Shown one piece after another: positions 43,139-46,749 of a stretch of DNA of 46,749 nt. The notes beneath the pieces are model-generated. The model was not told where the DNA came from and did not search any database. It saw only the letters and a program-made list of their open reading frames with translations. The number at the start of each line of letters is the position of its first letter. Position 1 is the first letter of the stretch. The position numbers were made by a program, and so were the translations under genes. The DNA comes from Candidatus Falkowiibacteriota bacterium (GTDB lineage Bacteria; Patescibacteriota; Patescibacteriia; Patescibacteriales; UBA12465), in NCBI GenBank assembly GCA_009995495.1, contig JAACPL010000009.1, forward strand, positions 1 through 46,749. The letters run 5' to 3'.

Positions 43139-43786
43139 ATGCCAAGTGGATATTTTAAGAAATTTAAAGATAGGCAATTAATGGGTCGGCTTAAAAAGCG
43201 TGACCAGGAGTCTTTTATTTTAGCTTATGATGCTAATGTTAAGGAGATAAACCGCTTTGTTTATTTCAAGGTTGGGAGCCGGGATGAGGCTGATGATTTA
43301 ACCTCTCTTATCTTTTTAAAGGCCTGGAATTATGTTCAATCTAAGAACTTACTTGAGGCTAAAACCTTAAGAGCTTTACTATATAAAATCGCGCGAAATG
43401 CGATAATAGACCATTACCGAGAGCAGAAAGCACACTTAGAACTTTCTCTTTCTTTTGAGGCTAATTTAAACGAGGACGGGGAACTTAAAGATGGGATGGA
43501 ATCTATTAAAGACGAGAAAAGTGACGTTAAAACACTTGAAACTAAAATTGATAATGATGCCGAACTCGCTTTAATTGAAAAGAATTTGCCCTTATTGAAA
43601 GAGGAGTATCGAGAGTTAATTATTATGCGTTTTATCAATGATCTTTCTTTGGAGGAAATCGCTGATATTAATCAAAAATCAAGGGGCAGTATTAGAGTTA
43701 GTTTGCACCGGGCTTTAAAAGCCTTAAGAGAATTAATTGAGGAAGAGCAGAAAGGAAGTAAGAATGAGTCTGTAACAAAAACCTAA
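43139..43786 (+). CDS. ECF-type sigma factor
   Basis: A 215-residue sigma-70-family protein with region 2 (ESFILAYDANVKEINRFVY, then DEADDLTSLIFLKAW and LLYKIARNAIIDHYRE) and region 4 (LPLLKEEYRELIIMRFINDLSLEEIADINQKS, then VSLHRALKALRELI). A charged linker of about 55 residues joins them, longer than in small ECF factors. Genes with this order, followed by a membrane protein with a DUF5667-like domain, form a recurring sigma/anti-sigma-like pair. It may direct transcription of surface genes such as the one at 45273. Confidence 0.93.
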   Translation: MPSGYFKKFKDRQLMGRLKKRDQESFILAYDANVKEINRFVYFKVGSRDEADDLTSLIFLKAWNYVQSKNLLEAKTLRALLYKIARNAIIDHYREQKAHLELSLSFEANLNEDGELKDGMESIKDEKSDVKTLETKIDNDAELALIEKNLPLLKEEYRELIIMRFINDLSLEEIADINQKSRGSIRVSLHRALKALRELIEEEQKGSKNESVTKT

Positions 43787-43844
43787 AGCATCCGTATACT
43801 AGAGTGTAAGACTTAAAAGGGCCAAAGCCTCAATTATAATAAGC

Positions 43845-44765
43845 ATGAAAAATCAGAACTTAATTATAAAACTAAAAAGTCTAAATAGCGTAGAGCCTGA
43901 TGCAAAATTCTTAAAGGATAATCGGGAGCTTTTGCTTAGCCAAATTAAGAACTCTGGAGTAGAAAAAATTTCTTCTTTCGATAAAATTTTATTAACCTCA
44001 GAAAATTTAGCTCGTCTTTTTTCTCGCCCAGCTTTTGCGCTTGGTGTTTTTGTTTTTGTTCTATTCGGAGCTAATTTTGTTTCTTCAAGTGTTTTAGAAA
44101 AGTCTAAACCAAATGACTCTTTATATATTGCCAGAGTTATTTCTGAAAGAGTTAAAGTTAATACAACTATCAACCAAGAAGCAAGAGAGAAATTAGCTAT
44201 TAATTATGCTCTTCGTCACGCTGAAGATATTGCTAGTATTTTAAGTGATGAGAAATTTAATAATGAAGAAAATTCCGACCAAGTTGCTAAGTTAAGTGAT
44301 GATTTTATTAAAGAAGTAAATAAGGTTGAAGACGGTTTAAATCGTTTAAATATTAAAAGTCACAAAGCAAATTTAAATGTTGAAACTGTTACTAATCTTG
44401 CGGTTGATGATAATAATGTTGAAGGTAATAATGAAGTAACTATGATTATCGCTGATAATTCTAAAGACGACGATGGTTTAGAAATTTATATTCCGGAAGA
44501 GAGAAAGGCGGTTATGGGAGAAATTGATATTGATCTTGACGTTGAAGGTGATGATGATGAAATTAAAGCTACTACCTCAGAAGAAGTTGTAGTAGCAACA
44601 AGTAGTGAAACTAAAGCAAGTAGTTCCGAAGAAGTTGGAGGGGATTTAATTATTCAAACTTCTATAACTTCTAAAACTACTGAAGCGAAAGAGTTAGCGG
44701 AAAAGAAAGATTTCGGCGCCGCTTTAAATAAGTTGAACGAAGCCGTTGAGTCAATTAAAAATTAA
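43845..44765 (+). CDS. DUF5667-like membrane protein, probable anti-sigma partner
   Basis: A 306-residue protein. About 60 cytoplasmic residues could bind the sigma factor encoded upstream. One membrane helix follows (RPAFALGVFVFVLFGANFVS, about 61-80), then an extracytoplasmic helical domain with KPNDSLYIARVISERVKV and REKLAINYALRHAEDIASIL, the pattern of DUF5667. After about residue 170 the protein is acidic and low-complexity (ATSSETKASSSEE). It starts 59 bases after the sigma gene. Position and topology support an anti-sigma role, but no classical zinc anti-sigma motif is seen. Confidence 0.82.
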   Translation: MKNQNLIIKLKSLNSVEPDAKFLKDNRELLLSQIKNSGVEKISSFDKILLTSENLARLFSRPAFALGVFVFVLFGANFVSSSVLEKSKPNDSLYIARVISERVKVNTTINQEAREKLAINYALRHAEDIASILSDEKFNNEENSDQVAKLSDDFIKEVNKVEDGLNRLNIKSHKANLNVETVTNLAVDDNNVEGNNEVTMIIADNSKDDDGLEIYIPEERKAVMGEIDIDLDVEGDDDEIKATTSEEVVVATSSETKASSSEEVGGDLIIQTSITSKTTEAKELAEKKDFGAALNKLNEAVESIKN

Positions 44766-44775
44766 AAATTAAAAA

Positions 44776-45153
44776 GCGCTAGTCTGTTAGTTTATCTCCT
44801 CCTGGTTGTTCCTAGTCCGAAGATTCGTCATCTGATGTGGATAGTATCGGTCGAGATAAATTAACAGATTCGCGTTTTAGGAACACTAAGTTCAAAAATA
44901 GCCGAATCGGCAGACCTGTTCAAGGTCGAACTTTCCCTTAGAAGAAAGTTGGTTTGTCCCTTATAAACAAAAAATTCAGTTTTAGCTTGATGACGAGATT
45001 TACGACGATTTTTAAAATCAGTAGATCGGTTAAGCTTTTCTCCAGCCCGGCGGTTTATCGCGCTAGGTTGGCAGAAATTAAATTGTTATGATTTTTTATC
45101 GGCCGGCCTCTTAAGCCACTAGGACTAGGGAAGCGGGATTCCGACCGATTTAC
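44776..45153. ncRNA. Candidate structured RNA or leader, strand not resolved
   Basis: No gene fits the 507 bases between the DUF5667 gene and the surface-protein gene, yet the first 380 are richer in G+C than most intergenic DNA here and have strong pairing. The main helix joins 44776-44798 with 44853-44875 (22 pairs, one mismatch, some G-T). Others are 44807-44815 with 44877-44885 (pseudoknot), 44913-44917 with 44923-44927, 44929-44935 with 44944-44950, 45042-45047 with 45066-45071, and 45021-45030 with 45044-offset partner 45144-45153. CCTAGTCC (44811-44818) can pair instead with GGACTAGG (45122-45129). The T run lies on the minus-strand side of the main helix. I could not match tmRNA, RNase P RNA, 6S or SRP motifs by eye. 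The remaining bases to 45272 show no clear promoter. Confidence 0.5.
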
Positions 45154-45272
45154 AGAGATTAGAAAAAGTCAAAAAATCAAAACCAAAAAGCGAAAAATTG
45201 AAAAAACTTTTCATTCATAATTCGTTTAAACTACTATTGTTTAGACAATTAGAATGAATTTAACTATTACTT

Positions 45273-46749
45273 ATGAAAAAATTACGCAAATTCTTAAACG
45301 CTAGCGTAATGGTAATGACCATTCTTGCAATGTCTGGTCTAGGAATGTTTACTCCTAATTTTGCTAAGGCTGCAGCTTCTGCTGGAGACCTTATCAAGAT
45401 GGAAGGAAATACTTCCGTTTACTATTTTGATGGCGCAAAAAGATTCGTCTTTCCTAATGAAGCTACTTACTTCTCATGGTACTCAGATTTCAGTGGAGTT
45501 GTTACAATTCCATCATCTGAATTACAAAGCTACCTTTTAGGTGGTAATGTTGTTATGAGACCCGGTACTAAATTAGTTAAGATCACAACCGATCCTAAAG
45601 TATATGCTGTTGAAGCCAACGGTGTATTAAGACATGTACAAAGTGAAGCTCAAGCTATTGCCTTATATGGTACTGACTGGGCTAAAAATGTTGTAGATGT
45701 TCCAGATGCTTTCTTTACTAATTACACAATTGGTACAGCTTTAGCTTCTGGTTCAGTTCCAGCCGGTTCTTTAGTAAAGAATGCTGGTGACAATTCAGTT
45801 TATTACTATGATGGTACTAATTACAGAACTATCGCTTCAGAAGCTGCTATGACTGCAAACAGACTTAGCTTCGCTAATGTTTTAACTATTTCTAACCCTA
45901 TCACTGCTGGCGGAACCGCTATCAGCGGTATGGAAACAGCTTTAGTTAAGACTTCACAAGGTGGAACAACAACAGGTCCAGTTGTTGTAGGATCAGCAGT
46001 TATGGTTTCATTGAGTGCAATGACTCCAGCTGCAAACGATGTACCAATGGGTAACTCAAATACTATTTTAAAGTTTAATATAACAGCTGCTAATGATGGC
46101 CCTGCTGTCATTTCTGGTGTTAAATTAACTGCAATTGGTTTGGGCGATCCAAGTAAAATAACTGCAATTTCTGTTTATCAGGATGGTGTAAAATTAAATA
46201 ATACTCCTCGTAATATTGATTCTAATAAAGAAGCTCAAATTAACTTCACAAATGCTGTTAATATCTCAGCTGGAAATACCGCTACTTTTGAAGTAAGAGC
46301 TACTATTGGTGACACAGCAAAACATGGATTAAGTATTGCTAAGGCTTCTGATGTTATGTCTGGAAACTCTGTTTCTGGTTCATTCCCAGTTTCTGGCAAT
46401 ATTTTTTCAGGTGCAGATGTTACAGTTGGTGACTTAGTGATTGATAAGGATGGAAGCGCTTTATCCGAGGTTACACTTGGTGATAAAGGAGCTACTATTG
46501 CTAAATTTAAGTTATCTAACAATGCTGTAGAAGATATTACTGTTAGCTCTATTACTTTTAAGAAAGATTCTTCAAGCACTGCTTCAGATGGCGTTGTTGA
46601 AAACTTAAAATTAAATTTTGACGGTCAAGTTATTGCTTCAGCTGATTCAATTTCAAACCGTTATGTTACATTTAAGTTGAACTCACCAATTACTATCAGT
46701 AAAAATACAGCTAATAAAAGATTAACTGTTACAGCTGATGTAGTCGATG
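45273..46749 (+). CDS. S-layer-like surface protein, 3' end cut by window edge
   Basis: About 492 residues are visible from the ATG at 45273, with no stop before the window ends. A signal peptide (KLRKFLNASVMVMTILAMSG, then an AKAAA cleavage-like site) is followed by two related segments with SVYYFDGAKRFVFPNEATY and SVYYYDGTNYRTIASEAAM, a motif I associate with abundant surface proteins of Patescibacteria. From about residue 240 it is a series of beta-sandwich domains rich in Ser, Thr, Ala and Val, with no cysteine seen. Codon use is regular and GCT/GTT-rich, as in highly expressed genes. It is probably the main or a major S-layer protein, and lies downstream of a sigma/anti-sigma-like pair. 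Confidence 0.88.
   Translation, partial: MKKLRKFLNASVMVMTILAMSGLGMFTPNFAKAAASAGDLIKMEGNTSVYYFDGAKRFVFPNEATYFSWYSDFSGVVTIPSSELQSYLLGGNVVMRPGTKLVKITTDPKVYAVEANGVLRHVQSEAQAIALYGTDWAKNVVDVPDAFFTNYTIGTALASGSVPAGSLVKNAGDNSVYYYDGTNYRTIASEAAMTANRLSFANVLTISNPITAGGTAISGMETALVKTSQGGTTTGPVVVGSAVMVSLSAMTPAANDVPMGNSNTILKFNITAANDGPAVISGVKLTAIGLGDPSKITAISVYQDGVKLNNTPRNIDSNKEAQINFTNAVNISAGNTATFEVRATIGDTAKHGLSIAKASDVMSGNSVSGSFPVSGNIFSGADVTVGDLVIDKDGSALSEVTLGDKGATIAKFKLSNNAVEDITVSSITFKKDSSSTASDGVVENLKLNFDGQVIASADSISNRYVTFKLNSPITISKNTANKRLTVTADVVD

Follow-up and report, generated by a model that had tools for sequence, protein, structure and literature searches.

A large modular RNA structure upstream of the main S-layer-like gene in Patescibacteria, a likely cis-acting mRNA leader

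The noncoding gap at positions 44766-45272 of the window (the whole analysed stretch of 46,749 nucleotides, which is contig C27 of a 0.94-Mb genome assembled as 48 contigs) contains a genuine, undescribed structured RNA on the + strand. We consider it likely that the main S-layer-like mRNA begins with this RNA as an extended 5' leader built of structured modules, which acts in cis to set the amount of protein. The RNA is very likely transcribed together with the S-layer gene as its leader, rather likely acts on mRNA stability or translation, and probably controls the quantity of the main surface protein that is made. The gap separates the gene for a 306-residue anti-sigma-like membrane protein from that for a large secreted protein. 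The + strand at 44770-45170 folds at -126 kcal/mol (z = -4.8), a value equalled by none of 100 shuffles, and the - strand of the same stretch gives z = -2.4. An unidentified structured RNA had been the core of the original prediction, and this was indeed borne out, with no Rfam match at the gathering score and strong covariation among homologues. Compensatory base changes were found in the elements that we term P1, D1, D2 and D3, indicating selection on the RNA structure. The raised G+C content noted at the same time proved to be only slight (0.365-0.40 in the stretch versus 0.27-0.365 upstream and 0.32-0.405 downstream).

Homologues were collected by BLASTN over 60 relatives and then with a covariance model, R1, of the 3' domain D2 built from 28 sequences; order, class and phylum are used here as ranks of the genome collection searched. 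R1 found one copy of D2 per genome in 64 of the 111 genomes of the order, spread over 14 families, and no D2 in any other order in a class sample of 381 genomes. We read 66 D2 loci, three of which end before the next gene, and in all of the other 63 the same S-layer-like gene lies directly downstream, on the same strand and at a constant position relative to the RNA. The upstream neighbour is not constant, being either an anti-sigma-like or a methyltransferase-like gene, and therefore the RNA is tied to the downstream gene. Twelve genus or family genomes without D2 were also searched; the gene is missing from 11 of them, and the twelfth (G013) gave only a partial match. This constant link to one downstream gene argues for a cis-acting mRNA leader and not for a house-keeping RNA.

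The gene concerned (45273-46748, + strand) encodes in the window the N-terminal 492 amino acids of the protein, with the rest beyond the window end. The protein typically starts with M[KN][KR]LRK... and carries a version of AGDLIKMDGLSSVYYL. In a congener, the full-length protein comprises 1224 residues with a signal-peptide-like start, no Cys, 52% T/S/A/V/G, and 142 acidic versus 68 basic residues; a structure model of the first 492 residues is beta-strand-rich (mean pLDDT 72). Pfam and NCBIfam gave no convincing family match, and neither sequence nor fold comparison with the PDB was informative. We call the protein S-layer-like because of its size, composition, predicted signal peptide and beta-rich model, and the name does not imply homology to a characterised protein. 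Such a protein would be very abundant. Genes with the S-layer-like N-terminal domain are present in 176 of 240 genomes of the class. A small inverted repeat, TTACGC...GCGTAA, occupies 45282-45309 in the first codons of the S-layer gene and is kept in many relatives; it may form one more RNA hairpin where the coding region begins.

Upstream of the leader lies the anti-sigma-like membrane protein gene (43845-44765, +; weak DUF5667), the usual but non-constant partner, and before it an ECF-type sigma factor gene (43139-43786, +). In most members of the order this pair (43139-44765) stands before the leader and the S-layer gene, and similar anti-sigma-like ORFs are found upstream in other orders too (L147, L152, L165, L166). 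The ECF sigma factor may drive the S-layer promoter. At nine loci (L101, L103, L106, L107, L108, L111, L117, L119 and L120) a methyltransferase-like gene replaces the anti-sigma-like gene, and its product contains a stretch like (I/L)(I/L)YDEHLVRY. We found no promoter above chance in the window, and comparison across loci did not reveal a consensus promoter at any constant distance upstream of the leader. In a few loci the eye picks out a plausible -10 box at the leader 5' end, but this position did not rise above other offsets, and a fixed -10 box was rejected. In G042 (L127), a TTGTCA-17-TATAAT promoter stands just upstream of D1.

D1 (44909-44958, +) is the element with the widest distribution. 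It consists of helix P4 (44909-44916 with 44951-44958), a one-sided loop AAGGUCGA ending in AAGGUCG, and hairpin P5 (44929-44935 with 44944-44950), which abuts the other strand of P4; in the window the loop reads TGTTC-AAGGTCG (44917-44928), with the motif at 44922-44928. Among 61 matches, all 13 model pairs changed on both sides and 94.3% of cells were paired, where shuffles gave 58.7% and slid controls 42-52%; these figures are biased in favour of the structure because the alignment was fitted to it. The statistics exclude two MAFFT alignments of D1 (A2 and A3) whose helices were not in register. Forty fresh S-layer genes were drawn within the class and outside the order: exact AAGGTCG occurs upstream in 34 of the 40, compared with only 2 when the opposite strand is read and a shuffled mean of 1.7. 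Around these motifs, P4 and P5 exceeded flank shuffles at p <= 0.05 in 20 of 33 cases and at p <= 0.01 in 14 of 33. The motif mostly lies 86-170 bases before the protein match in class genes outside the order, and D1 lies 238-625 nt from the ATG within the order. It is retained on main S-layer genes that share only about 28-46% protein identity, as CAGGTCG in two of them. The exact motif is absent from 8 of 8 paralogues that share the N-terminal domain and from 6 of 6 genes outside the class.

The D1 model R3 matches the leader of its own genome at E=3.0e-5. D1 appears to be specific to the S-layer gene within the limits of this own-genome search, because the sole other match falls on the terminal part of an S-box riboswitch. 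Matches outside the class were few, marginal, and located inside genes or S-box riboswitches; we judged them to be chance. With so small a model and such strict filters, this phylum-wide search is a weak argument for the absence of D1 there. The S-box SAM riboswitch in question (65 bits; L174:1408-1514, G000:C43) precedes a 98-residue ORF with several CxxC pairs rather than any obvious methionine gene. The AAAGGUCGA element is present twice before one S-layer gene (L126:1239 and 1400; L153; genomes G050 and G156), as if the D1 site had been duplicated.

D2 (45021-45153, +) is a domain of ~130 nt in which the near-invariant AAGCUUUUC and GCGGGAUUCC lie between the closing helix PA (45021-45031 with 45143-45153) and helix PB (45038-45046 with 45124-45132). 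The corresponding strands in the window are AAGCTTTTC (45032-45040) and GCGGGATTCC (45133-45142), with variable arms between. In PA, 98.7% of cells are paired and four pairs show compensatory change (exchanges C-G/U-A, A-U/G-C and U-A/C-G); in PB, 90% are paired and three pairs show such change. Covariation over the domain is 0.364 versus 0.181 in shuffles, and none of 500 shuffles scored as high. The arms are reduced to a few bases in some genomes (L027, L029) with the core kept. In many members of the order outside the genus (L087, L092, L103, L119 and others), one arm forms a hairpin whose loop is conserved around CC(C)AUG; the window's genus has GGCAGAACUU at that position instead. Ten more distant genomes of the order have the S-layer-like gene and no R1 match; by eye, D2 is recognisable in four of them (G043, G058, G061, G062) and degenerate in G098, D1 occurs without D2 in G042, G044, G050 and G064, and G038 was left unclassified.

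The structure extends further on both sides. On the 5' side lies the P1 hairpin (44774-44877, +), a helix of 44774-44798 with 44853-44877 enclosing a variable internal part (44799-44852). The long helix of 44776-44798 with 44853-44875 had been proposed from the single sequence, and covariation in 10 congeners supports it: over the 24 pairs, comprising the 22-pair helix and two outer pairs, 95.8% of cells are paired compared with 25-45% in slid controls, with five pairs changed on both sides and 14 invariant. The inner part, 44786-44798 with 44853-44865 (GTTAGTTTATCTC / GAGATAAATTAAC), is near-invariant in sequence within the genus and therefore conserved beyond what pairing needs; it could also be a protein-binding site in DNA or RNA.

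Towards the start codon, the stretch between D1 and D2 is proposed to pair with the stretch before the ATG, a long-range helix that we term PL. Of 56 loci, 30 showed pairing better than shuffles at p<=0.05, and 16 did so at p<=0.01. It is not significant in the window sequence alone (p=0.37), where the putative strands, TTCAGTTTT at 44975-44983 and AAAATTGAA at 45194-45202 (both +), are assigned from their counterparts in relatives. The D3 hairpin follows at 45210-45259 (+), with the 5' strand TTCATTC-A-TAATT-C-GTTTAAAC, the loop TACTATT (45232-45238) and the 3' strand GTTTAGAC-AATTA-GAATGAA. D3 ends 13 nt before the ATG, its loop UACUAUU is conserved in the family, and within the family 82.4% of its cells are paired versus 65.6% in shuffles, with compensatory change in 15 of 19 pairs (0/500 shuffles). 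The 3' end originally placed at 45153 thus coincides with the end of the conserved helix PA, although the conserved leader continues to the start codon at 45273.

Could the RNA instead be a riboswitch for a metabolite or an ion, with D1 or D2 binding the ligand and refolding to switch S-layer synthesis on or off? Invariant unpaired letters held in a covarying scaffold upstream of one gene are indeed aptamer-like (AAGGUCGA; AAGCUUUUC/GCGGGAUUCC). However, no conserved expression platform was found among terminators or proposed alternative pairings. In 59 leaders, not one terminator-like hairpin was found on the way from D1 to the start codon, and the leader in the window lacks one as well. As for alternative pairings, a pseudoknot (44807-44815 with 44877-44885) and a competing helix (44811-44818 with 45122-45129) had been proposed to form a two-state switch. 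The former has nine possible pairs here, of which homologues retain 57%, no better than shuffles, and the latter is a perfect 8-mer here, of which homologues retain 66% against a shuffled mean of 65.4%. Both look like chance complementarity in a single sequence, and the switch is unsupported because homologues keep neither of them. In addition, the distance from D1 to the ATG or to the protein match varies as given above, and the leader is tied to a single structural gene, whereas aptamers mostly serve metabolic or transport genes. We therefore regard a riboswitch as unlikely.

An alternative is that a separate noncoding RNA, whether structural or catalytic, is transcribed here from a promoter of its own and has its 3' end near 45160-45200. 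This would account for the size, the single copy per genome and the high conservation, which resemble those of free-standing RNAs, and for the variable AT-rich linker of 24-387 nt between D2 and the ATG. In some genomes an AT-rich stretch lies between D2 and D3, and a promoter there could make D1-D2 a separate RNA. Against this, none of the 63 loci is found away from an S-layer-like gene, the genomes searched that lack the gene also lack the RNA, no terminator follows D2, and the proposed PL would couple the stretch before D2 to that near the ATG. In G064 (L129), moreover, D2 is deleted and PL has shrunk to a short hairpin that is followed directly by AAAGGA and the ATG, so that the leader runs straight into the ribosome-binding site. 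A free-standing RNA is thus an improbable reading.

D1 might also serve as a standby or decoy site for ribosomes, its AAAGG loop mimicking the Shine-Dalgarno core and loading ribosomes onto a heavily translated message. The loop usually contains AAAGG or CAAGG, close to the AAAGGA that precedes the ATG in several relatives. The invariant part includes UCG, however, which has no match to the anti-Shine-Dalgarno sequence, and the highly variable distance from D1 to the ATG likewise speaks against such a role, for which we see little chance. A divergent RNase P RNA or tmRNA, suggested in the original prediction and favoured only by the size of about 380 nt, proved wrong, since ordinary genes for both lie elsewhere in the same genome above the Rfam cut-offs (RNase P RNA, RF00010, at C35, E = 2.1e-65; tmRNA, RF00023, at C11, E = 4.5e-54), and the locus itself matched neither in Rfam, nor a tmRNA in ARAGORN. 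No Rfam 15 family exceeded its gathering score in the window, and the recommended search with relaxed thresholds returned only chance matches at E <= 10 (sn3071, rliE). When 11 loci were scanned against Rfam at E<=1, the leaders stayed unmatched, with miRNA, Qrr and Phe-leader models far below cut-off.

Taken together, we favour a cis-acting leader of the S-layer-like mRNA and propose the following mechanism. D1 would be the ancient core kept throughout the class and the likely docking site of a trans-acting factor, which might be a protein, possibly the S-layer protein, a ribosomal protein or another RNA-binding protein. D2 would be a compact order-specific domain with near-invariant internal-loop strands. 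PL and D3 would extend the structure to the start codon, where they may shield the message from decay and govern ribosome access. In this manner, the leader would act once transcription has begun and set S-layer synthesis by way of mRNA stability and access for ribosomes. That a protein factor takes part is a tentative suggestion, and participation of a small ligand is doubtful. Equally tentative is a class-wide feedback in Patescibacteria, in which the AAGGUCGA loop of D1 and, within the order, D2 as well would be recognised by a dedicated RNA-binding protein or by a small ligand. If this holds, S-layer synthesis would be matched to growth of the cell surface, and the leader would represent a new class of regulatory RNA, whose ligand or effector might be of a new kind too.

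To our knowledge, little is known about gene regulation in Patescibacteria. The RNA family described here is large and well defined; the clear target gene, the single copy in each of the 64 genomes (out of 111 in the order) in which it was found, and the class-wide core together give a direct handle on control of the coat, the surface by which these ultra-small bacteria meet their hosts. The leader can further help to mark the main S-layer gene in genomes, and D1, a compact and strongly covarying hairpin, is suited to structure and binding studies.

Structured leaders are known for S-layer genes of Lactobacillus and Thermus. We know of no sequence or structural similarity between these or other S-layer leaders and the Patescibacteria leader. 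Our literature search found no paper on a Patescibacteria S-layer leader and no report of a structured RNA of Patescibacteria's own, and no described RNA family was found to match the leader. In another bacterium, S-layer mRNAs have been reported to be unusually stable, and the passage on this point refers to an article about stabilisation through a 5'-terminal stem-loop (PMC8056022). Like S-layer mRNA leaders elsewhere, the present one would place a strong 5' structure on the message of an abundant surface protein; unlike them, it is far larger and modular, with invariant internal-loop letters throughout the class. With autogenous leaders of the ribosomal-protein type it shares a position upstream of one gene, a covarying scaffold and an asymmetric loop that is small and invariant, whereas the target here is a secreted surface protein and no Rfam leader family matches. 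Riboswitches such as the S-box SAM riboswitch (RF00162) are likewise cis-acting and have conserved unpaired letters, but in this leader neither a terminator nor a conserved form of the proposed alternative pairings provides an expression platform; the likeness of D1 to the S-box is by chance, as Rfam recognises the S-box at 65 bits and does not recognise the leader. RNase P RNA and tmRNA resemble it in length and are encoded elsewhere in the genome. Structured leaders of S-layer messages were thus already known, and what is new is a leader family of this size and modularity, together with its unexplained invariant loop.
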